From a candidate division FCPU426 bacterium (GTDB lineage: Bacteria > Oederibacteriota > Muellerivitia > Muellerivitales > Muellerivitaceae): a stretch of 57,410 nt of DNA. This document shows positions 25,644 to 53,036 of this stretch, in pieces. The stretch spans positions 1-57,410 of the forward strand of contig PLZG01000099.1 in assembly GCA_003152075.1 (NCBI GenBank). The letters run 5' to 3'. Both the position numbers and the translations under genes were made by a program. The notes beneath the pieces are model-generated. The model saw only the letters and a list, made by a program, of their open reading frames with translations, was not told where the DNA came from and did no database searches. Each line of letters opens with the position of its first letter. Position 1 is the stretch's first letter.

Positions 25644-26759
25644 TTATTGGATGTAGGTATCCCCAAAGCTGATATTTTGGAGCAGGCCGTTGGTGGTGGG
25701 GGTCAATGAGCCCAAGTTAAGATAGGGGTCGCCGGTATCAAATACGTAATCACCGTTGGCGTCAAACCAGGCCCGCAGGTAAAGAGGCGTTAGCCCCGTA
25801 TTGCTGCCCCCGTCGTTGGTGACGAAGTAATAGGTGTCCCCATTGGAAATAATCCCGGTTAGGTAGACTTGTGTTGTGTAAGCCGCGTCGGAATAAGCCG
25901 CGATAAAGACATGCCGGCATAGGCCTAACGTGCCCCGGCTTCCCGTGTAAGCCGCCGTTCCAAAAATGCCCCAATAACTGCAGGTGTCGTCGAAGGTTAG
26001 GCTGGGGCCAGTGGTGGTGGTGCCCGCGGACCCGGTGACCGTGACCGGGTAAGTGGCCACCGTAGCGGGGATGGTGCAGGCCCCGGTGGTGGTGTAGCGC
26101 ATTCCGGGAACATGATATAAATAAAGCCAGCTGTTCTGGTTAAAGGGTGAAGATTTTGTGATTCCGTTGTAATCGAAATAAGCCGAGAGTTGGTAGGTAC
26201 CCGTAAACAGGGTCCCGAGAACATAGCTCCCCCCGCTGGATAAAATCTCGAAACCGCCCGCTTCCATTTGGCTCAACCCCATGATCCAGGAAGGCGTTCC
26301 GCCCGCCACGAAAATGTTGTGGCTGACATCCACAGTTCCGGTTCCGCTATAGGTTAAGGAACCATTCTGGTAATAGGTAGGTGTAGGGGGAGCGGTGCCG
26401 GTGAGGGTTGGCGTGGCTGTCCGGCAAGCCGTGCCCGTCCAGGTGGGCGTGGAGGTGAACCAGGTTCCGGTGGGAGTGGGAGACAAAGTGGTTGTGGGTG
26501 TATTCGTTATGGTCGCAACGGGAGTGTTGGTTGGCGTGAGGGTGGGGCTGGGCGAGGGGCTATTGGTAGGCGAATTGGTGGGTGAACCGGGAGCGGGGGT
26601 AGTACTCGGTGTGTTAGTGGGGGAATTAGAGGGGGTATTCGTAGCAACCAGTGGGGGAGTCGAGGGCGTGGGCACGGTTAATTTGCTGGAACAGGCTTGA
26701 ATGAATAGGATGATCAGTAACGGGCCGAGAAATAGGATGCTTAAGAGACGGATTTTCAT
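25644..26759 (-). CDS. Lipoprotein with Pro/Thr/Ser linker and C-terminal beta domain
   Basis: A 371-residue lipoprotein. AAGGGGG six bases before the ATG fixes the start; the signal MKIRLLSILFLGPLLIILF ends in lipobox IQAC, followed by SSKLTVPTPSTPP. Residues ~40-130 are a PT/NSPT linker. From ~130 onward the protein is beta-rich with Gly/Thr/Tyr (GTYQLSAYFDYNG, TGACTIPATVATYPVTVTG, YYFVTNDGGSNTG, FDANGDYVFDTGDPYLNLG). The last motif is Asp-rich and could bind calcium. I do not recognise the domain. Third member of the PT-linker lipoprotein group in the window. Confidence 0.8.
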   Translation of the reverse strand: MKIRLLSILFLGPLLIILFIQACSSKLTVPTPSTPPLVATNTPSNSPTNTPSTTPAPGSPTNSPTNSPSPSPTLTPTNTPVATITNTPTTTLSPTPTGTWFTSTPTWTGTACRTATPTLTGTAPPTPTYYQNGSLTYSGTGTVDVSHNIFVAGGTPSWIMGLSQMEAGGFEILSSGGSYVLGTLFTGTYQLSAYFDYNGITKSSPFNQNSWLYLYHVPGMRYTTTGACTIPATVATYPVTVTGSAGTTTTGPSLTFDDTCSYWGIFGTAAYTGSRGTLGLCRHVFIAAYSDAAYTTQVYLTGIISNGDTYYFVTNDGGSNTGLTPLYLRAWFDANGDYVFDTGDPYLNLGSLTPTTNGLLQNISFGDTYIQ

Positions 26760-32093: not shown

Positions 32094-32444
32094 ATGGAAC
32101 GTTTGGTGCTTGCCACGCGAGCGGCCATGTCCAATACATCGGTTACCGTGGTGGATATCGAGGGTGTGCTGGATATCAACACGGTCGGTGAATTCGAAGC
32201 CATACTCCAGGAACTTTTCAAAAAGAAACAATACAAGGTCGTCCTGAACATGAAGAAGCTCACCTATATTTCCAGCGCGGGTTTTGGCGTGCTCATGAGC
32301 ATCATCAAAGACGTCCGCAAGAATCGGGGCGACATCAAGATCGCCAACGTCAGCTCGGACATCTACAAGGTTTTCGACCTTTTGGAACTGCCGGGACTTT
32401 TCCACATCCTCAAGACTGAACAAGACGCCGTCAGCGAATTTTAA
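32094..32444 (+). CDS. STAS-domain anti-sigma factor antagonist
   Basis: A 116-residue single STAS domain: VDIEGVLDINTVGEF, then VVLNMKKLTYISSAGFGVLM with the phosphorylatable Ser in ISSAG, then a closing amphipathic helix. Such proteins bind or release an anti-sigma factor/kinase depending on phosphorylation. GGAGGG seven bases before the ATG is the strongest ribosome site in this block. No anti-sigma or sigma gene is adjacent, so its partner lies elsewhere. Confidence 0.88.
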   Translation: MERLVLATRAAMSNTSVTVVDIEGVLDINTVGEFEAILQELFKKKQYKVVLNMKKLTYISSAGFGVLMSIIKDVRKNRGDIKIANVSSDIYKVFDLLELPGLFHILKTEQDAVSEF

Positions 32445-34118: not shown

Positions 34119-34323
34119 AAAGCAGTTGACGGTCGACAGTCCACAGTTGACAGCTAGAATTACAAAATCTAAACCCGCCTGTTCATTTGGCTTCAATCGT
34201 TTGTAGGATTTGACGGTAATAGCGTCTTTTACCCCTCCTTGCCTTGACAGACCCCTCACGCAACTTATAATGCCGTCGTTTAGCCGACATCGAAAAGTCC
34301 ATCAATCTTTACTTGGATATGAA
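34119..34323. repeat. Spacer with TTGAC-rich dispersed repeat
   Basis: GTTGACGGTCGACAGTCC and CAGTTGACAGC (34125-34153) are of the TTGAC-type short repeat common between genes of environmental genomes. No hairpin terminator or promoter pair is clear before glgA. Confidence 0.45.
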
Positions 34324-35844
34324 ATGGCAAGAAAAGCAGCCGACAAATCAATCGAAACTCCCGTCGTCGAACACCGTGAGCATGCCCGCGGAAGGCGGGT
34401 CTTGTTCGTGTCGTCTGAGGTGGTGCCATTCGCCAAGACCGGCGGTTTGGCCGACGTGGTGGGTTCATTGCCTCGTGCCCTGATGAAGTTAGGCTGCGAA
34501 GTCGCCGTGGTCATGCCGAAATATAAGAACATTTCCCCTGAAAAATATAAATTAAAATTGGAAGTAAAAGGCATACCGGTCCCCATGGGCATGGGGGAGA
34601 TGACCGCGGATATCTACTCCACCCGCTTGGGGGATACCAACGGAACTGTCTACTTCATCCAAAATGACCGCTATTTTGACCGGGACGGTTTTTATGGAAC
34701 GCCGGAAGGTGATTACCACGACAACGCCGAAAGGTTCGCTTTTTTCTCGCGGGCCGTCCTGGAAATGTTGAAGGCCATACAATGGTTCCCTGAGATTCTT
34801 CACCTCAATGACTGGCAGACCGGGTTGGTGGCGGCTTTCCTTAAAACCCTTTATCAAAAGGCCCACCATTACCAAAACATCCGGACGCTTTTTTCCATCC
34901 ACAACATGGCCTACCAAGGCCTCTTCCCCAAATATGTTCTTCCCATGACCGGCTTGGGCTGGGAGGAGTTTAGCCATGAGAAACTGGAGTTTTATGACCA
35001 GGTGAATTATCTCAAAGCGGGTTTGGTCTACTCGGATGCCTTGAACACGGTCTCGGAGAGGTATGCCGAGGAGATCCAAACCGAGGAATATGGCCATGGC
35101 TTGCAAGGGGTGCTCAAAGACCGTGCTTCTGAATTGTACGGTATTGTCAACGGCATCGATTACGACGAATGGAACCCGGCTACGGACAAGGAAATTCCTG
35201 CCCAGTACACGGTGAAAAACCACGACCAAAAAACCGAGTCCAAAAAGAAACTCCTTTTGGAACAAAACCTCACTTATAACCCCAACACGCCGGTCATCGG
35301 GCTCATTTCGCGGCTAACCGACCAAAAGGGTTTGGACCTGATCGCCGAGATCATCCAGGATTTCCTTGCCATGGACGTCCAGTTTGTGATTTTGGGGACA
35401 GGGGAACCGAAATACCACCTTTTATTGGAAGAGTTGAGAGGAAAATATCCTTCAAAGCTCTCCGTGGCCTTGAAATTCGACAACCGCCTCGCGAAATTGA
35501 TCTACGCTGGAAGCGATATGTTTCTTATGCCTTCCCGCTTCGAGCCTTGCGGACTGGGCCAGATGATCGCCATGAAATATGGGACGATCCCATTGGTCCG
35601 AAAAACCGGCGGGTTGGCGGACACGGTGGAAAACCTGTCGCCGGACGGCAAAAAGGGAACGGGTTTCGTTTTCGAGGATTACAAGGGCGAGGACCTGCTT
35701 TTCATTCTTAAGCGGGCCACGGAAGCTTTCCACCAGCCCAAGCTTTGGACGGAACTGGTTCAGCGGGCCATGAAGCAGGATTTTTCCTGGGACGCCTCGG
35801 CGAGAAAATATCTTGAGATTTATGGTAAAATCCTAAAAAAATAA
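34324..35844 (+). CDS. glgA: Glycogen synthase
   Basis: About 506 residues from ATG 34324; in-frame ATGs at 34270 and a start at 34210 are possible but would add an unconserved tail. It is a GT5 starch/glycogen synthase: KTGGLADVV (residues 38-46, ADP-glucose binding), HLNDWQTGLVAAFLK, FSIHNMAYQG, VNGIDYDEWNP, GLISRLTDQKG and the acidic pair motif FEPCGLGQM...GTIPLVRKTGG. It extends alpha-1,4-glucan from ADP-glucose in the cytoplasm. The next gene encodes a GGDEF protein with a glycogen-binding module, an informative pairing. Confidence 0.96.
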   Translation: MARKAADKSIETPVVEHREHARGRRVLFVSSEVVPFAKTGGLADVVGSLPRALMKLGCEVAVVMPKYKNISPEKYKLKLEVKGIPVPMGMGEMTADIYSTRLGDTNGTVYFIQNDRYFDRDGFYGTPEGDYHDNAERFAFFSRAVLEMLKAIQWFPEILHLNDWQTGLVAAFLKTLYQKAHHYQNIRTLFSIHNMAYQGLFPKYVLPMTGLGWEEFSHEKLEFYDQVNYLKAGLVYSDALNTVSERYAEEIQTEEYGHGLQGVLKDRASELYGIVNGIDYDEWNPATDKEIPAQYTVKNHDQKTESKKKLLLEQNLTYNPNTPVIGLISRLTDQKGLDLIAEIIQDFLAMDVQFVILGTGEPKYHLLLEELRGKYPSKLSVALKFDNRLAKLIYAGSDMFLMPSRFEPCGLGQMIAMKYGTIPLVRKTGGLADTVENLSPDGKKGTGFVFEDYKGEDLLFILKRATEAFHQPKLWTELVQRAMKQDFSWDASARKYLEIYGKILKK

Positions 35845-35934
35845 GACAGACTCAAATCCAACGGCGCTTCGCTTTCTTCCCAACTCTTTTCCGGTATCGT
35901 ATCCTTTAAATCCATCGAAATCTTGAAAGATAAA

Positions 35935-37212
35935 ATGCAAACCGACCTAACCCAATTTATCCAAGAAAAGGTAAACGCCCTCCATAACCATTGGAAGTCT
36001 TCCTTGAAGGATATTTTTGGCCGCTTGAACCTGCTGGGGGATGATCCAGCCGTTTTCACGGAACTGCGCGGCCTGTTGATGGACCTGGTGGCCATGGTTG
36101 AAAGGTCAGAGAGCGTGGAGCAAGCCGTGGACGCCGAGTTAGCCAGCATCGTCTTTCATTTAAAAGCCCTCCAGACGAACCAAGGGCTTTCCTCCACCGA
36201 AATGGTTCTTTTGCTTTTCGCCATGAGGGATTCGATTCGAAAGGCCATTCAGGAAATTGTGGACCATGGCATCGAGGGCCAGCATTGGGTTTCGGCCCAC
36301 TTCCAAGTGGCATCCCAAGTATCCCTGCTCCTCAACCGGCTGGGGTTGGTCTTTTTCGAGGGCTCCATGCGGCTCAAGGAACAAGGAGTTGGCCAGGATG
36401 TGATGGCCATTGAGTACGCCCTTCTTTATGAAAGGACTCGGCAGGCAGCCATTACCGACCGCCTAACAGGACTCTACAATTTCGGGTATTTCCTCGAGCG
36501 CTTGAAGGAGGAAAGGATGAGGGCTGAAAGGTACCATCGTCTCTTGTCCCTGATCCTGTTCGATATCGACCATTTCAAAAAATATAACGACACTAACGGC
36601 CACCCGGCCGGCAACGAGGTCTTGAAAAAAATCGCCGCCATCATCAAGGAAGGGGCCAGGGAAGTGGATATCGTGGCCCGTTATGGCGGGGAAGAAATGG
36701 TGATTGTTCTCCCGGAAACCAGCCGGAGACGGGCGATGGAGCTGGCGGACAGAATACGCGTCAGGATATTCGAAACCAAGTTTGAGCACATGGAAAGCCA
36801 GCCACAGGGAAAGATCACCATTTCCGCGGGGGTCGCCACTTTCCCGGTGGACGCGGTCAACGAGGAAGAGCTGATTAAAATGGCGGATAATAGTTTGTAC
36901 AAGGCCAAATCCAAGGGTCGAAACTTGGTTGTGGCCTATGACCCAGCCGTCAAGATCCCCATCCGGTACAAATCGCACCGGGAAATTTCCAAGGTGGCCC
37001 TGGTGGGCAATTTCAACAACTGGGACAAGGACGTGGACCTGATGGAGCGCCAGCCGGACGGCTCCTTCCAGTTCGTGATTGCCTTGAACCCTGGAGTTTA
37101 CCATTACAAGTTTGTCGTAAACGATGTGGAGTGGATTCCCGACCCGGCCTGTCCCGAGCGGGTGCATGACACCCTGGGTGGCGATAATAGTGTCTTGAGA
37201 GTTCACGTCTAA
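35935..37212 (+). CDS. Diguanylate cyclase fused to a CBM48 glycogen-binding domain
   Basis: A 425-residue soluble protein. Residues 1-170 are an all-helical region of unknown type. Residues ~172-336 are a GGDEF domain: DRLTGLYNFGYF, FDIDHFKKYNDTNGH, the active-site loop GGEEM (251-255; Met replaces the usual Phe), and the allosteric I-site REVD (242-245) exactly five residues before it. Residues ~341-425 are an AMPK-beta/CBM48 domain: VALVGNFNNWDKD (Trp 363), VYHYKFVVNDVEWIPDP (Trp 400), GGDNSVLRVHV. Both carbohydrate-contact tryptophans of CBM48 seem present. It would make c-di-GMP and bind alpha-glucan, and sits 90 bp after glgA. ATG 35935 is chosen over a TTG 12 bases upstream. Confidence 0.9.
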   Translation: MQTDLTQFIQEKVNALHNHWKSSLKDIFGRLNLLGDDPAVFTELRGLLMDLVAMVERSESVEQAVDAELASIVFHLKALQTNQGLSSTEMVLLLFAMRDSIRKAIQEIVDHGIEGQHWVSAHFQVASQVSLLLNRLGLVFFEGSMRLKEQGVGQDVMAIEYALLYERTRQAAITDRLTGLYNFGYFLERLKEERMRAERYHRLLSLILFDIDHFKKYNDTNGHPAGNEVLKKIAAIIKEGAREVDIVARYGGEEMVIVLPETSRRRAMELADRIRVRIFETKFEHMESQPQGKITISAGVATFPVDAVNEEELIKMADNSLYKAKSKGRNLVVAYDPAVKIPIRYKSHREISKVALVGNFNNWDKDVDLMERQPDGSFQFVIALNPGVYHYKFVVNDVEWIPDPACPERVHDTLGGDNSVLRVHV

Positions 37213-37311: not shown

Positions 37312-40149
37312 ATGGCCGATTACAAATCAACCCTCAACATTACCCAGACTTCCTTCCCCATGAAGGCCAACCTGCCCCAGACCGAGCCTGAGAGGCTCAA
37401 GCTTTGGGAAGAGATGGGCTTTTACAAGCGTATGTTCCAGAAGCCCGGTGCGGATAAATACGTCCTGCACGACGGGCCTCCCTTCGCCAATGGCGACATC
37501 CATGTCGGCCATACCTTGAACAAGGTTTTGAAAGACATCATCGTGAAGTATCGGGGTTTGAGGGGCTACGACACGCCCTACGTTCCGGGATGGGATTGCC
37601 ACGGAATGCCCATTGAGCACAAGGTTGTGGAGCAGTTGGGCGGGGCCAAGGCCAAAGCCATGTCCAAGGTGGATATAAGGAAAGAATGCCGGAAATACGC
37701 TGAGAAATTTCTGAACCGCCAAAGGGATGAATTTAAGAGATTGGGCATTTTGGGCGATTTCGACAATCCCTATGTGACCATGGACCCCACCTATGAACTG
37801 TCGCTGGTCAAGGCCCTGACCCGGATGGTGGCTGAGGGTTACGTGAGCCGCCGCTTGAGGCCTATCCACTGGTGTCCCTTCTGCAGGACCGCCCTGGCCG
37901 AGGCGGAGGTTGAATATGCCGATCATGAGTCCCTTTCGGTTACCGTGGCCTTTCCGGTGAAGGAATTGCCCAAGGGAGTTTTCCCAAACACGCCCCGGAA
38001 TAACTTATCTTTCCTGATTTGGACGACCACCCCCTGGACCCTTCCGGCCAACCTGGGTATCTCAGTTCATCCCGATTTTGAGTATGTCTCCATCCAGGTT
38101 GGGACTAACTATTACATTGTATCTAAGGTTCTTTTGCCTCAAGTGGCAGGTGTCTGTGGATGGAAATCGAGCGACTTTAAGATCATTGATGAAGTCCGTG
38201 GAGATGCTTTGGACCGCGCGGTGGGACGTCACCCTTTCTTGGACCAGGATTCCCTGGTTATGGTGGGGACCCATGTGACCGCCGACACGGGAACGGGATT
38301 GGTCCATACGGCGCCTGGCCATGGCCGGGAGGACTATGAAATCGGCCTCAAATACGGTCTGCCCGTTTACTCCCCGGTGGACGAGGCTGGGAAGTACGAC
38401 GCACGGGTAAAAGAATTCGAGGGGATGTCGGTTTGGGACGCCAATCCCAAGATCGTGGAAAAGTTGAAGGGGCTTGGCAAGCTTCTTTCGCTGGAAACCA
38501 TCAAACATAGTTACCCCCATTGCTGGCGCTCGAAGAACCCCATCATCTTTCGGGCCACGGCCCAATGGTTTATTGAGTTGGACCATAAGGATTTAAGGAA
38601 GAATTGCTTGACGGAAATCGAGAGGGTCCAATGGATACCGGCCTGGGGCAAGGACCGCATCAAGAACATGGTGGAAGGGCGTATGGACTGGTGCATTTCC
38701 CGCCAACGCTCCTGGGGCGTGCCCATCACGGCTATTTACTGCAAGACCTGCGGCAAGGTGGTGGAGGATTCGAAAACGCTTGAGTCCATCGTGGCCTTGG
38801 TTCAAAAGGAAGGCATCGACGGCTGGTTCAACCATCAGGCCAAGGATGTGCTCTCTCCAGGTTTTAAATGTTCCTGTGGCTCCACGGACTTCGTGAAGGA
38901 AGAGGATATTTTGGACGTCTGGTTCGAGTCCGGGAGTTCCCACTTCGCGGTGATGGACCAAAGAGAAGAACTGAAGAATCCCAAGTATGTTCTTTATTTA
39001 GAGGGGAGCGACCAGCACCGGGGTTGGTTTCAACACGCCCTTTGGACCGGTGTGGCCCTTAAGGGAAAGGCCCCCTTTGACGGGGTTTTGACCCACGGGT
39101 GGGTTTTGGACGCGCAGGGTAAAGCCATGCACAAAAGCGCGGGCAACGTTATCGACCCGCTTGAAATGATCAAAAAATATGGCGCCGATGTCCTACGTTT
39201 GTGGGTTTCTTCAGAGGATTACACTGAGGATGTCTCTATCAGCGAGGAAATGCTTAACCGCATGTCGGAAGCCTATCGCCGGATCCGCAACACCTTCCGG
39301 TTCATCCTGGGCAATCTTTCGGATTTCAATCCGGCCTTGAACCGGGCTGACGAAAAGGATTTCCTGCCCCTGGACCGATGGGCATGGATGGAGTCGCAAA
39401 AGACCTTAAAGGGAATCGAAACGGCTTACGATCAGTACCAATTCACCAAGGTGTTTCACCAAATGGACCAGTTTTTTTCCGTGTCCTTGAGCGCGGGGTA
39501 TTTTGACATCCTGAAGGACAGGCTTTACACCTTCGAGACCGATTCCAAAGCCCGCCGGGCAGCCCAAACTGTTTTGTACGAAATCCTCAAGGGTTTCGTG
39601 GTGGCCGCAGCTCCCATTCTGTCCTTTACCTCAGAAGAGATTTGGCAGGCCCTGCCAGAAGGGTTCAAAGAAAAAAGTGAGAAGAGCGTGTTTGATGCCA
39701 AATGGCCCAAAGACGATGGGAAGGGAGAAAGTAGCCTCTCGCAAGAGTGGGACGAGATCTTCGCCGTAAAGAGGGCCGTTTCCAAATCCCTGGAAAGTTT
39801 GCGTCAGGCCAAGACTATCGGCAGTTCCTTGGAATCCGAGGTCGAACTATTTCCGGCCAACGAGAAGGTGAAAGAAATCCTTAAAAGTCACCTGGATGAC
39901 CTTCGGTATTATTTCCTGGTCTCAAAGGTTGATTTGAAAGAGGGGAACGCTCCTTCGGGCGCCCTGGAGGCCGAGGACCCGAATTTGAAAATGAAAACTG
40001 TGGTTCGGAAGTCCGGCGGCCAGAAATGCGCCCGGTGTTGGAACTATTATCCTCCGGAACAAATGGACAAGACCTATTCCGATATTTGCCATCGCTGTGG
40101 ACCTGTCGTCAAGAAGGCGCAATCCGCAGGAACCTGGACACCCACATGA
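37312..40149 (+). CDS. ileS: Isoleucyl-tRNA synthetase
   Basis: A 945-residue class Ia synthetase charging tRNA-Ile. GDIHVGHTLN (residues 61-70) holds the HIGH motif, and GKAMHKSAGN (603-612) is the KMSKS loop in a KAMHKS variant. The CP1 editing region shows LIWTTTPWTLPAN and DTGTGLVHTAPGHG, WFESG and DQHRGWF are in place, and the C-terminus has the zinc finger CARCWNYYPPEQ...CHRC. Length is normal for a bacterial type enzyme. The stop overlaps the lspA start (ATGA), the classical ileS-lspA arrangement. Confidence 0.97.
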   Translation: MADYKSTLNITQTSFPMKANLPQTEPERLKLWEEMGFYKRMFQKPGADKYVLHDGPPFANGDIHVGHTLNKVLKDIIVKYRGLRGYDTPYVPGWDCHGMPIEHKVVEQLGGAKAKAMSKVDIRKECRKYAEKFLNRQRDEFKRLGILGDFDNPYVTMDPTYELSLVKALTRMVAEGYVSRRLRPIHWCPFCRTALAEAEVEYADHESLSVTVAFPVKELPKGVFPNTPRNNLSFLIWTTTPWTLPANLGISVHPDFEYVSIQVGTNYYIVSKVLLPQVAGVCGWKSSDFKIIDEVRGDALDRAVGRHPFLDQDSLVMVGTHVTADTGTGLVHTAPGHGREDYEIGLKYGLPVYSPVDEAGKYDARVKEFEGMSVWDANPKIVEKLKGLGKLLSLETIKHSYPHCWRSKNPIIFRATAQWFIELDHKDLRKNCLTEIERVQWIPAWGKDRIKNMVEGRMDWCISRQRSWGVPITAIYCKTCGKVVEDSKTLESIVALVQKEGIDGWFNHQAKDVLSPGFKCSCGSTDFVKEEDILDVWFESGSSHFAVMDQREELKNPKYVLYLEGSDQHRGWFQHALWTGVALKGKAPFDGVLTHGWVLDAQGKAMHKSAGNVIDPLEMIKKYGADVLRLWVSSEDYTEDVSISEEMLNRMSEAYRRIRNTFRFILGNLSDFNPALNRADEKDFLPLDRWAWMESQKTLKGIETAYDQYQFTKVFHQMDQFFSVSLSAGYFDILKDRLYTFETDSKARRAAQTVLYEILKGFVVAAAPILSFTSEEIWQALPEGFKEKSEKSVFDAKWPKDDGKGESSLSQEWDEIFAVKRAVSKSLESLRQAKTIGSSLESEVELFPANEKVKEILKSHLDDLRYYFLVSKVDLKEGNAPSGALEAEDPNLKMKTVVRKSGGQKCARCWNYYPPEQMDKTYSDICHRCGPVVKKAQSAGTWTPT

Positions 40150-40622
40150 TGCTCCTCGGCATTTCCATGTTGGTGGTCGCGCTTGACCAATTCACCAAGT
40201 TTCTCATCTCCCAATCCATGCACTTGAATGAATCCACCCCGCTTTTTCCCGATTATCTCTTTCTCACCTATAGCCAGAACCCTGGCATGGCCTTTGGGTT
40301 CATGGCCGGCATGGAATCCTTTGTCCGGATTCCTTTTTTCGTGGCCATCACCATCGCGGCGGGTTTTATCATATACACTTACCAGCATTTGATGCCTCCG
40401 GACCGGGTATTAACCCGGGTGGCACTGGGGTTGATCTGGGGTGGGGCTTTGGGGAATTTCGTGGACCGGATTCTTTATGGAAAAGTCATTGATTTCATCG
40501 ACATGCGTTATCATGAGCACCAGTGGTATATCTTCAACTTGGCCGATTCCTGCATCTCGATAGGCCTGCTATTCCTATTTTTTGAGTTTATTTGGGGAAA
40601 ACGGCGAAAGACCCAGTCATGA
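40146..40622 (+). CDS. lspA: Lipoprotein signal peptidase, first copy
   Basis: A 158-residue polytopic aspartyl protease (signal peptidase II), cutting prolipoproteins before the lipidated Cys. Family motifs: ALDQFTKFLI in the first helix, NPGMAFGFM, GALGNFVDRILYGKVIDFID and YIFNLADSCI, which include the two catalytic Asp residues. ATG 40146 overlaps the ileS stop by ATGA; its own stop overlaps the start of a second lspA in the same way. Together the three genes form a coupled operon. Confidence 0.95.
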   Translation: MMLLGISMLVVALDQFTKFLISQSMHLNESTPLFPDYLFLTYSQNPGMAFGFMAGMESFVRIPFFVAITIAAGFIIYTYQHLMPPDRVLTRVALGLIWGGALGNFVDRILYGKVIDFIDMRYHEHQWYIFNLADSCISIGLLFLFFEFIWGKRRKTQS

Positions 40623-41104
40623 GATTGTTGCGAGTTTCCTTGTTGGCGGCCATCCTGGACCAAGCTTCCAAATACCTGGTGGTGAAGTATTTCCGGTTCA
40701 ATGATTCCGTAGCTTTAATTCAAAATTATCTTTATATCACTTACATCCAAAACCCGGGAGCGGCTTTTGGTTTCATGTCTAACACGAAAGCCTTATTTCG
40801 CATCCCTTTTTTCGTGGCTATTACCTTTGGGGCGGGGTTGATCGTATATTCCTACCAGAGGTTTATCCCTTATGAGAAGAAGTGGACCAGGTTCGCTTTG
40901 GGGTTGATCTGGGGCGGGGCCATGGGTAATTTCATCGACCGGATTTTTTACCGCAAGGTCGTGGATTTTATTGACGCGGGCCATATTCCATTTCCATTTG
41001 GTTACAGGTTCTCTTATATCTTTAACCTGGCGGATTCTTGTATAACGATTGGATTGACGATTTTGGTCCTGAGCTATTGGTTTGAAAAGCAGGAAAAGAA
41101 ATAA
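40619..41104 (+). CDS. lspA: Lipoprotein signal peptidase, second tandem copy
   Basis: A 161-residue paralogue of the preceding gene with all LspA motifs: AILDQASKYLV, NPGAAFGFM, GAMGNFIDRIFYRKVVDFID and YIFNLADSCI, including both catalytic Asp. ATG 40619 overlaps the previous stop (ATGA). Identity with copy 1 is highest in the membrane core and lower at the periplasmic loop (AGHIPFPFGYRFS versus MRYHEHQW), which could change substrate preference. Two intact lspA genes in tandem suit a genome with many lipoproteins. Confidence 0.95.
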   Translation: MRLLRVSLLAAILDQASKYLVVKYFRFNDSVALIQNYLYITYIQNPGAAFGFMSNTKALFRIPFFVAITFGAGLIVYSYQRFIPYEKKWTRFALGLIWGGAMGNFIDRIFYRKVVDFIDAGHIPFPFGYRFSYIFNLADSCITIGLTILVLSYWFEKQEKK

Positions 41105-45621: not shown

Positions 45622-47826
45622 TTAGGTACGTGGGCCCAACACTCGATAAACATAAATGCCGCTTTTTGAATCTACTAACTGGAGGTGAAAGTTGGTGGAT
45701 ATTTTACGGAAAATCTTGGGTTCGAAATTTTCAAAATAAATATTATTCTCAAAGGAATTATCTGAACAGTAAATAAAGTCTCCTGGTTTTAAGTGAGGGT
45801 CAAAAAGACTAATCTGTTCTAGAACGGGCTTGCATTGACCGGCTTGGACAAAATCGTTATAGGGATAAATTTTGTACCGGCCCGTATAAAGGGAAACCTC
45901 CAGCCCTTTTTCGCCGAAAAAATAAACCAAAAATTTATTGGAACCAGAATATTTTTCAAACAACTCTTCTGCGTTGTGGGCGAAAATATCATCCCGGGGC
46001 ATATCTTTTGTGGCAAGTTTAAAATTTTTCCACACAGCAGACAATGGCAAGGCTTTCCCCTCCATTTTTTTAGCAACCCGTGGGAAAAAAGATTGCAGAT
46101 ATAGGCCTAAAAACACAACCGTTATGCCAAAAAAAGTCGTTTTGAACCCGCGAGGTATTCTAGACTGAGCCGAACGGTGAACAATGACTAACCAATAAAC
46201 CAACAAAACAAGACTGGGCATAGAGATATAAAAAAGGTAATCGTTGGAGGCTCGACTTAAGTAATAGGAAAACTGTAATATTCCAAAAAAAGTCAAAAAA
46301 ACTACCGCGTTTAAATTATCTTCTGTTTTTTCTTTTTCGGAAATCTTTATGGAACATCCGATTATGGCAAAAAAAGAACCTAGGAGAATCCAGATGAGTA
46401 CCCACCAATAGCCTGCTAAAGGTGCTGAAAGTTTGCCGAAACCTCCGACATATGCAAAAATATGGTCAAAGTAAAGAAGCCAATTCGGCAAACGGCCAGA
46501 CCTTAGAAAAACGTCCACATAGACAAATACTCCGATAAGAGTTATGCAACCGACCAGCATCCCAATCCTTTTTTTGAACTGTTCCAAATTCAATTGAGGG
46601 CGCGTTTGAAGGTAAATGCATTCATAGAGTACCAGCCCCACGTAGGCTGAGACCGTATAAATGCAAACTTCAAAACTCCAATAGAAAGCTATGGCGACAA
46701 AAATAGATTCAATAAATAAAAAAATATTCCTTTTATTCGGATGCCGGTTCCTCAGTAACACGAGAGCGGTCAATAAATAGAAAAGACCGAAACGCAAGGG
46801 GCCGGCGGAAGGGTAACGAGTGATATAACTGGACGGACCGAAATAATTAAGGAGAAGAAAGGTGGTTAAGCAAAAAAAAGACAACCACTCGGAATCGAAA
46901 AACAAACGAACGATAAAAAAAAACAAGAGATATTCAAGTATTAAAAGAATGGTGTATACCAGCGTGAAAGAAGTAAATCCCAGCGGTAAGGCATGGAAAA
47001 AGAGTCTTAAAAAATAAAAAATTAAGATCCCGTATTGGGAGTTGATGTTGACTAAAAGTGATTTTCCTGCGGAAAGATCTGCCAAAGGTCCGAGAAAAAA
47101 GGCGGCGTGGTGCCGGTCATGTTCAAACCGTGGATCCACAACAACAAGGGAAATTAAAAGAAAAGCGACGCCATAGGAAAAAATTTTATTCCTAGGTCCT
47201 TCAAAGGCACTTTTCTTTTCGCCTGCCGCGCCAAGGTTTTTCTTCGAAAAAGGAAGAGTTCCAAAATAAAATAAAGTTATTACCGCCGGCACAAACCCAT
47301 AACTATAAAGGGACCAGTTGTTTAGGATGGGATTAAAAACTTCCGGTATCCTCGTAAGCCAAAAAATTAATAAAAAACCCATAACCGGATAAAAAAGTCC
47401 ATCTAAACGGGGTGAACGGTTTGGCGGCTGTCCTAAGATCACGCTCAAAGTTATCCCGCTAACCTGAAAAAGTATGAAGTGAAAGAGAAGAAGCCAACCA
47501 TTATCTCTTCCCCAATTACACGGCATGTAAAATAAAAGCAACAAAAGAAAATCAATAAAAATCAAAGGTAGATAAAGAAAAGGCTTTAATTGTTCATGCC
47601 TCCTTCGAGCTTCTTCAATTAAAGCACTCGTTAAAATACCTCCTGGAACAAAGACTGCCCATCCCCAAACATATAAACTGAACTCATCTTGGTGCCCTTT
47701 ACCCGTAAAAGAATAAAATGAAAGGAATATCCTAAAAGTTAAGAGACCCATGAGGCCACTCAAGAAAAAGAATTCAAATTTTTCATGATTTTTGTCAGGA
47801 AAGAAAACCGATTTATTTTTCACCAT
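45622..47826 (-). CDS. Large polytopic membrane protein, GT-C-like
   Basis: A 734-residue protein with about 13-14 membrane segments and a ~140-residue soluble C-terminus. Loops hold GHQDEFSLYVWGW and, near residue ~240, FEHDRHHAAFFLGPLADL followed by GKSLLVNINSQYGILIF, a pattern I associate with hypothetical GT-C glycosyltransferases. The gene is clearly AT-richer than the block to its left. No strong ribosome site is visible before ATG 47826. Probably an envelope glycan enzyme; not assignable further. Confidence 0.6.
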   Translation of the reverse strand: MVKNKSVFFPDKNHEKFEFFFLSGLMGLLTFRIFLSFYSFTGKGHQDEFSLYVWGWAVFVPGGILTSALIEEARRRHEQLKPFLYLPLIFIDFLLLLLFYMPCNWGRDNGWLLLFHFILFQVSGITLSVILGQPPNRSPRLDGLFYPVMGFLLIFWLTRIPEVFNPILNNWSLYSYGFVPAVITLFYFGTLPFSKKNLGAAGEKKSAFEGPRNKIFSYGVAFLLISLVVVDPRFEHDRHHAAFFLGPLADLSAGKSLLVNINSQYGILIFYFLRLFFHALPLGFTSFTLVYTILLILEYLLFFFIVRLFFDSEWLSFFCLTTFLLLNYFGPSSYITRYPSAGPLRFGLFYLLTALVLLRNRHPNKRNIFLFIESIFVAIAFYWSFEVCIYTVSAYVGLVLYECIYLQTRPQLNLEQFKKRIGMLVGCITLIGVFVYVDVFLRSGRLPNWLLYFDHIFAYVGGFGKLSAPLAGYWWVLIWILLGSFFAIIGCSIKISEKEKTEDNLNAVVFLTFFGILQFSYYLSRASNDYLFYISMPSLVLLVYWLVIVHRSAQSRIPRGFKTTFFGITVVFLGLYLQSFFPRVAKKMEGKALPLSAVWKNFKLATKDMPRDDIFAHNAEELFEKYSGSNKFLVYFFGEKGLEVSLYTGRYKIYPYNDFVQAGQCKPVLEQISLFDPHLKPGDFIYCSDNSFENNIYFENFEPKIFRKISTNFHLQLVDSKSGIYVYRVLGPRT

Positions 47827-51107: not shown

Positions 51108-53036
51108 CTAATAATTTTTTAAGCTGTTAAGCATTTGAAGGCTGGGTTGATCATTCGGATTTAATTGAAGAACATCCTCAAGACAGGTCCGGCCCAAGGG
51201 ATAATTTTTAAGGTGGAGATTCGAGATACCCAACTTGAAAAAAAATTCCTCATAACCGCCGCCAGCGCGGCGTAACCCTTCAGCAAAAAGGTCCCGGGCG
51301 GAGGGAAATTCCTCGGCTTTTAGGGCAAAAAAACCCATGCTGAAGAGGCCCATGGGGTAGGTTTGGGGTTTGAAGAAGCCCTCAAGCCATGGTTCGAACT
51401 TGGAAGGTTTGATTTGCTGGAGCAATAGGGCCGTGGATTCATCGGTGGCTTGGGGTATTTGCTTCGCCGTTAAAAGGGATGGGAAAGAAACGGTGGGAAA
51501 TTCTTTGGCGTAATCCGCGTGGGCATAGATGGCAGTGCACCCGTCTAGGTAAATTAAACGCCAGTCAGGGAAATGTCTCAACTGTTCCACCCAGCCCGGG
51601 GCCGCGTTGTACTCCATGAGAATAAGTTGGGGTTGGTAACGGGTCAAAAGTGGAATAAGGCCGTTTCCATTAAAACTTTGGACATATTCCTGGTAAAAGC
51701 CGTCCTCCACGACCTCAGAGCGACCATCAATAAAGGTCGGCTGGGGGCCTTTCCAATCCAACCACCCTCCGAAATCCAGGTGATTGAGAAGGCGGCCATC
51801 GAGATGGTTTTTGGTCAGGAACTCGGTGGCCTTCACGGGGAGCCTTTCGGAATCAAGGCCAAGGCCTAAACGATCGACCCTTCGGTCGGTAATGTAATAG
51901 GCGTTAGTCATGACTCGGAGGGAAAGTAAAAGGATAAATAGTGTGGTTAAGAGAGGGAGGGCTTTCCCAAGGTTCCAATTCCATGACTTCCTTGTCCTGT
52001 AATCCTGGATGGCGGAAGCCAGGATGGGAGCTGCCACCAGAGCGAAAAGGGGAATATTCCGGACGGCTGTAAGGGCCATGTACCCAAAGGCCCCTAACAA
52101 GAGAAATTCATGCAATTTTCTACGCTTCAAAGACAAGAAGACGAATAAAAGGGAAAGCCCGACTAATAGGAAGAAAAGAAAGATGTGCGTGTTTGAATCG
52201 TAATGGAGATTTTGTTTCTTCAAATATTCCAGGGGGGAAAGGAGTTCCGAAATGGTTTGCTTGTGCAAATTGGAACCCTGAAGACGGGTTAATAGAACCA
52301 GAGGGAAAAGCACCCCCTTAATGAAATAAGGATTAAGGAAATCCGCGGCCACGGATAACAAAGCGAACCAGACTAGTTTGGGATCCCATCTTTTCTGGTG
52401 AAAGAAGCCACTAACGATGTAAGCCCCCATGGCAAAGCAGCCTAAGATAAAAAGGCCCTCTACGTTGACCCAAAAAAACTGGATGAGAGGCAAGAGGTAA
52501 AGAAAATCTCTGTTCCGAGCACGCTGGTCTAATACCCAAAGGCTGAGGGTTAAGAATAACCAAGAAAATATCTCTGGCCGCACCAAGAAGCGTCTTTCCA
52601 TCATGAAGAGGGCCAGGAGCAGGGCGAGGCAGGCCAAACCCGGCGAAGCGTTTGAAAGGTTGAGTCGCCACAAAAGAAGGCCGAAAGTCAGGGATAAAAT
52701 CAGGATGTTGAGGAGGGTAAGTGAGGGAAAACCGAGAAATTCCTGTAGAAGATAAAGCGTGACTTGATAAAGCCCGTTGGAGTCCAAATAATCCCGGTTG
52801 GTTTGGGTATAGGTGAATGTGTCTTTTCCTGGGATGGAGTGGTTTTGAACGATCCATTGGCCCGCTTTGAGGTGGGTGCCTAGGTCGTAAGAACCTATTT
52901 GCTTGGCTGAGAGAAGTAGTAGGAGGAGAAGACAAGCAGATAAGGGATAAAACCACCCCGATTGAAGCAGGGATTTTAATTGGTAAGGGGAACTGACTAT
53001 TGAAGCGGTTGATGGGGTAGGTTTTGATTCTGGCAT
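51108..53036 (-). CDS. Tandem paralogous membrane protein with TPR tail, copy 1
   Basis: A 642-residue paralogue of the preceding - strand gene. It has DLGTHLKAGQWIVQNH and KDTFTYTQTNRDYLD in the first loop, ERRFLVRPEIF, then NHLDGRLLNHLDFGGWLDW, FIDGRSEVV and a C-terminal TPR pair (KLGISNLHLKNYPLGRTCL). AGGAAA precedes ATG 53036. Conserved Asp and Glu residues on the outside would suit a polyprenyl-linked sugar transferase, but this is inference. It follows the TPR gene by ~20 bases and should be in its operon. Confidence 0.65.
   Translation of the reverse strand: MPESKPTPSTASIVSSPYQLKSLLQSGWFYPLSACLLLLLLLSAKQIGSYDLGTHLKAGQWIVQNHSIPGKDTFTYTQTNRDYLDSNGLYQVTLYLLQEFLGFPSLTLLNILILSLTFGLLLWRLNLSNASPGLACLALLLALFMMERRFLVRPEIFSWLFLTLSLWVLDQRARNRDFLYLLPLIQFFWVNVEGLFILGCFAMGAYIVSGFFHQKRWDPKLVWFALLSVAADFLNPYFIKGVLFPLVLLTRLQGSNLHKQTISELLSPLEYLKKQNLHYDSNTHIFLFFLLVGLSLLFVFLSLKRRKLHEFLLLGAFGYMALTAVRNIPLFALVAAPILASAIQDYRTRKSWNWNLGKALPLLTTLFILLLSLRVMTNAYYITDRRVDRLGLGLDSERLPVKATEFLTKNHLDGRLLNHLDFGGWLDWKGPQPTFIDGRSEVVEDGFYQEYVQSFNGNGLIPLLTRYQPQLILMEYNAAPGWVEQLRHFPDWRLIYLDGCTAIYAHADYAKEFPTVSFPSLLTAKQIPQATDESTALLLQQIKPSKFEPWLEGFFKPQTYPMGLFSMGFFALKAEEFPSARDLFAEGLRRAGGGYEEFFFKLGISNLHLKNYPLGRTCLEDVLQLNPNDQPSLQMLNSLKNY

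Follow-up and report, generated by a model that had tools for sequence, protein, structure and literature searches.

A putative diguanylate cyclase with an AMPK-type carbohydrate-binding module encoded beside glycogen synthase in a candidate division FCPU426 bacterium

The second messenger c-di-GMP is the switch between moving and settling, and to our knowledge few links are known between it and carbon stores. The DNA analyzed here, a stretch of 57,410 nucleotides from a candidate division FCPU426 bacterium (contig PLZG01000099.1, assembly GCA_003152075.1) and referred to below as the window, raises the question of whether such a link might reside in one protein. Directly behind a glycogen synthase gene lies a second gene, whose predicted product joins a GGDEF domain to a carbohydrate-binding module (CBM) of the type found in the beta subunit of AMPK.

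The glgA locus and the build of the fusion protein

Positions 34324-37212 of the window comprise two genes, glgA and, 90 bases on, the fusion gene. The mechanical open reading frame of the fusion opens at TTG 35923, from which residue numbers are counted here. Alignment of the family places the start at ATG 35935, and the stop codon ends at 37212.

34244..34271, plus strand: promoter-like site, TTGACA-16-TATAAT, matching the consensus at 12/12 positions, 52 bases before the glgA ATG
34324..35844, plus strand: glgA, glycogen synthase (ADP-glucose type), ATG start, matching TIGR02095 and Glyco_transf_5
35935..37212, plus strand: fusion gene, RsbRD_N-like / GGDEF / AMPK-type CBM48, 425 amino acids from the ATG
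35947..36252, plus strand: RsbRD_N-like sensor domain, residues 9-110, 22.8 bits and so just under the cut-off of 24.3

The glgA product scored 587.9 bits against TIGR02095 (cut-off 328) and matched Glyco_transf_5 with an E value of 1e-91. The site before glgA is a sigma-70-type match, and the scan of the region returned 7 sites scoring at least 9/12, compared to 4.4 expected from shuffles. A shared transcript of glgA and the fusion gene is predicted and likely, and through such co-transcription the fusion protein would probably be made together with glycogen synthase. Family searches of the host genome found GlgA, GlgB, and GlgP, the GlgB-type protein having two CBM_48 stretches, as well as 33 first-look GGDEF candidates and 23 PilZ matches.

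The original prediction described one protein with a GGDEF domain and a C-terminal AMPK-beta-type CBM48, and the Pfam profiles of both domains indeed matched. It had overlooked the RsbRD_N-like domain at the N-terminus. This profile scored 28.1 bits in the same-genus orthologue of the fusion, over the cut-off, and since the first 100 or so residues are RsbRD_N-like, the protein has a second, N-terminal input domain. Identity as a stressosome RsbR-type protein was rejected, as Pfam found no STAS domain after the RsbRD_N-like domain in this protein. A stand-alone STAS (anti-sigma-antagonist-like) gene lies at 32094-32444 of the window, three genes upstream of the RsbRD_N-bearing fusion, and a stressosome-like link is possible.

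As predicted, the fusion follows glgA, which was found directly upstream in all eight genomes of the host family. Six of these carry the fusion at full length, and in two it is interrupted where the contig ends; this conservation argues against a chance join or artefact. Lack of the fusion in relatives, which would have told against the original prediction, was thus not observed. The surrounding block (ftsY, STAS, 5'-nucleotidase, glgA, fusion, ileS, lspA, lgt, and rluD) is itself largely conserved in the family, which weakens the adjacency of glgA as evidence. Genome G005 has several genes between the fusion and ileS, and G004 has a different gene upstream of glgA; in both, glgA and the fusion are still tightly linked. 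In 26 other genomes, no GGDEF gene was found within about 1.5 kb of glgA on the sequence that the contigs cover.

Elsewhere in the window, two lspA (signal peptidase II) genes stand in tandem with slight overlap (40026-40622 and 40592-41104), and relatives G001 and G005 likewise have a second copy there. Pfam gave no match at an E value of 1e-5 for three proteins of large or medium size, one encoded on the minus strand at 25647-26759 and the others at 45625-47826 and 51111-53036.

The carbohydrate-binding module

36976..37206, plus strand: AMPK-beta-type CBM48, residues 352-428, Pfam AMPK1_CBM, best PDB match 1z0m
37021..37023, plus strand: Trp367, equivalent to AMPK beta1 W100
37108..37110, plus strand: Lys396, equivalent to AMPK beta1 K126
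37132..37134, plus strand: Trp404, equivalent to AMPK beta1 W133
37186..37188, plus strand: Asn422, equivalent to AMPK beta1 N150

A poor CBM48 profile score had been named as grounds for doubting the module. The fusion matched AMPK1_CBM with an E value of 5e-12 and 46.3 bits, compared to a gathering score of 26.8, and the host genome (4.1 Mb) has no other AMPK1_CBM match. The CBM_48 profile proper gave 18.2 bits, under its cut-off of 22.4, and the module was therefore assigned to the AMPK sub-type. For structure modeling, the GGDEF and CBM domains were given separate alignments and not a composite one, and relatives retrieved by genome search did not enter these alignments. The CBM model had a mean pLDDT of 93.2 from 22 aligned sequences and superimposed on the AMPK beta1 glycogen-binding domain 1z0m with an E value of 1.6e-6, an rmsd of 1.3 Å, TM scores of 0.79/0.91, and 31% identity. 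Both the curated score and the CBM48 fold are thus in keeping with the AMPK1_CBM sub-type.

W100, K126, W133, and N150 are critical for carbohydrate contact in AMPK (PMC4032982), whose glycogen binding is abolished by W100G and K126Q and weakened by W133L (PMC6274970). All four contact residues are kept in the fusion: the two key tryptophans noted originally are present as W367 and W404, and K396 and N422 are found as well. Among 13 aligned fusions from three phyla, W367 and K396 are invariant and W404 is kept in 12. N422 is kept in the nine same-phylum fusions, and the equivalent of N150 is lost in the four from other phyla. Substitution rates indicated that purifying selection acts on the CBM, less strongly than on the GGDEF domain and, in most pairs, more strongly than on the N-terminus. 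Judged from these residues, binding of alpha-glucan by the CBM is a well-supported prediction.

AMPK beta (1z0m, 2f15) resembles the fusion in its CBM fold, in the four contact residues, and in that the CBM is an accessory module, C-terminal or internal, within a signaling protein. It differs in being the scaffold subunit of a eukaryotic kinase, whereas the fusion has a GGDEF cyclase domain in the same chain and lacks both a kinase and the AMPK C-terminal (alpha/gamma-binding) region. Identity as an AMPK beta subunit was rejected, as the chain ends with the CBM and Pfam found no other AMPK domain; the fusion may nonetheless act like the CBM of AMPK-beta while being no member of that family. 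AMPK is inhibited by glycogen binding in cell-free assays (PMC6274970).

CBM48 modules of similar type were also found in other settings. Among the 80 CBM matches listed, 33 had the CBM preceded by a signal peptide or by a stretch resembling a membrane helix. Seven of the loci (L014, L013, L034, L042, L063, L022, and L019), from several phyla, encode small anti-sigma-factor-like proteins. These have an N-terminus that looks cytoplasmic and a single membrane helix, and they end in an AMPK-type CBM48 predicted to lie outside the cytoplasm; the L014 protein has an HxxxCxxC-like start. Since closely similar CBM48s end membrane-anchored proteins that would display them on the outside, a CBM48 alone is no proof of a role with glycogen.

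The module might instead dock a partner other than glycogen, either a protein, for example GlgA, or a different glycan, with the neighborhood of glgA inherited and not functional. Such docking would fit the CBM48-like modules on membrane-anchored proteins, likely on the outer side, and the conservation of the gene block around glgA as a whole; it would also fit the four fusions of other phyla, which do not lie near glgA and are those without the N150 equivalent. We nevertheless consider it unlikely, as the same-phylum fusions retain the full set of AMPK contact residues, CBM48s carrying both tryptophans are usually alpha-glucan binders, and glgA-type genes occur in six of the seven fusion genomes tested.

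The GGDEF domain

36448..36924, plus strand: GGDEF domain, residues 176-334, Pfam E value 1.3e-45, TIGR00254 178 bits
36613..36615, plus strand: Asn231, where canonical GGDEFs have the guanine-contacting Asp
36658..36669, plus strand: I-site REVD, residues 246-249, five residues before GGEEM
36685..36699, plus strand: active-site loop GGEEM, residues 255-259, the last loop residue being Met instead of Phe

The domain has the profile, the GG[DE]EF loop, and the metal and phosphate residues of a GGDEF diguanylate cyclase. Residues D214, N222, E257, E258, K329, and R333, metal and phosphate residues among them, are kept at what we take to be the corresponding positions of PleD, and the RxxD of the I-site is invariant across all aligned fusions. 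The description of an apparently active GGEEM with an intact I-site was accurate as to the motifs, but did not mention that the canonical Asp at the guanine-contacting position is replaced by Asn231. That Asp is a canonical trait and not a condition of the profile family; its replacement in the position that reads guanine makes cyclase activity likely rather than assured.

The best solved sequence matches of the fusion were DgcR and WspR. The fusion shares with the canonical cyclases PleD, WspR, and DgcR a GGDEF domain that has metal and phosphate sites and an RxxD inhibition site, and differs from them in its C-terminal CBM48, in the Asn for the guanine-reading Asp, and in having an RsbRD_N-like domain instead of a receiver as input.

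Asn occupies the guanine-reading position in each of the nine same-phylum fusions whose motif could be located, and the fusions of other phyla have Asp. The uniform Asn could indicate a GGDEF domain that does not synthesize c-di-GMP, being a receptor for it at the RxxD site, or one that makes a mixed dinucleotide. We regard this as quite unlikely. The fusion keeps the six residues named above, degenerate GGDEF receptors usually lose the GG[DE]EF motif, and Asn was also found in three of 19 unfused GGDEFs, a small sample. Precedent for an altered product comes from the Hypr GGDEFs, whose product shifts to cGAMP with Ser in place of the Asp (PMC6456294). Hypr enzymes, however, combine Ser or Thr with GGDE[F/Y], in contrast to the Asn231 and GGEEM of the fusion, and a Hypr identity was rejected on these grounds. 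We read the fusion as a soluble GGDEF enzyme and, most likely, a diguanylate cyclase.

Fusions in other bacteria and the proposed role

A profile search of 384 genomes, in which the best four candidates per genome were scored, found at least four GGDEF-CBM48 fusions outside the phylum, in two other phyla. Genomes G327 and G190 encode a GAF-GAF-GGDEF-CBM48 form. The GGDEF-CBM48 of G227 and G082 is short, and an HD-domain (HD-GYP-type) protein is encoded nearby. Within the phylum, G012 and G018, from two other families, have GGDEF-CBM48 with a different N-terminus and away from glgA. Four N-terminal designs are joined to the GGDEF-CBM48 pair. In a separate scan of named genomes ranked by CBM, none of the 80 loci listed had a GGDEF in the same frame as the CBM, and plasmid records gave ordinary GGDEF matches only.

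The survey of glgA neighbors proposed with the original prediction gave a divided answer, with adjacency throughout the eight host-family genomes and none for the fusions outside. The fusion does not adjoin glgA in G012, G018, G327, G190, or G227, and G082 had no glgA match. Of the seven fusion genomes tested, six had a gene of the glycogen/starch-synthase type, and six had one of the phosphorylase family. In a poorly resolved GGDEF tree, a single clade of all fusions was weakly rejected (p-AU 0.045), and a single clade of the same-phylum fusions was not (p 0.41). The GGDEF and the AMPK-type CBM were probably joined more than once, a recurrence which suggests that the combination is useful.

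We put at about an even chance a mechanism in which the cyclase is tethered to glycogen by its glucan-binding module and the state of the granule tunes local c-di-GMP. The CBM48 would grip glycogen, and many copies of the enzyme could gather on one particle. Cyclases work as dimers of GGDEF half-sites, and clustering would raise the local concentration of half-sites and promote dimerization. The amount or branching of glycogen might in this way tune, in either direction, the c-di-GMP made near GlgA, while the RxxD site would limit output by feedback inhibition and the N-terminal RsbRD_N-like domain would contribute a second signal.

The CBM could alternatively act by true allostery, binding glycogen at its non-reducing ends or branch points, or binding malto-oligosaccharides, and changing the conformation of the GGDEF domain without clustering on granules. 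Its contact residues are the same as in AMPK, where such conformational sensing is proposed, and the linker between GGDEF and CBM is short, about 15 residues, with its length conserved across the fusions. We think direct allostery rather unlikely, and tethering is preferred, because the CBM is C-terminal, whereas control of GGDEF domains normally arrives through N-terminal helices. The fusion, moreover, has its own N-terminal input domain, and the full-length structure model gave no confident packing or arrangement of the domains.

Tethering to glycogen would place the fusion apart from known connections between c-di-GMP and glycogen. In Streptomyces, GlgX is regulated by c-di-GMP binding, which likewise links c-di-GMP to glycogen metabolism and involves a CBM_48 protein (PMC9530166). 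GlgX is a target of c-di-GMP, on the output side, whereas the fusion has a glucan-binding module on the would-be signal maker, on the input side. Glycogen in E. coli changes with cyclase and phosphodiesterase levels by a route left unexplained (PMC9530166). The sole chain found in the literature to combine a carbohydrate-active domain with a (modeled) GGDEF is the GH126 protein of Bacillus velezensis, a glycoside hydrolase with a C-terminal GGDEF, in contrast to the glucan-binding module behind a cyclase described here (PMC7479077). Our full-text searches, with most subscription papers outside their scope, found no description of a GGDEF with a CBM48 or a glycogen- or starch-binding domain, which agrees with the initial impression that no bacterial signaling protein of this build had been reported but, given that scope, is not proof of novelty. 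We rate the fusion as a putative cyclase whose accessory module is of a new type.

We tentatively suggest, at somewhat less than even confidence, that these proteins form a class of second-messenger enzymes, recurrent in bacteria, whose AMPK-type module makes cyclase output dependent on glycogen, a c-di-GMP-wired counterpart of AMPK sensing whose parts were probably joined repeatedly. If true, the glycogen-binding module of a eukaryotic energy sensor has also been recruited in bacterial signaling, and a cyclase that grips glycogen would add an input direction, from reserve to signal. The fusion suggests that stored sugar may be linked to lifestyle signaling in these bacteria.
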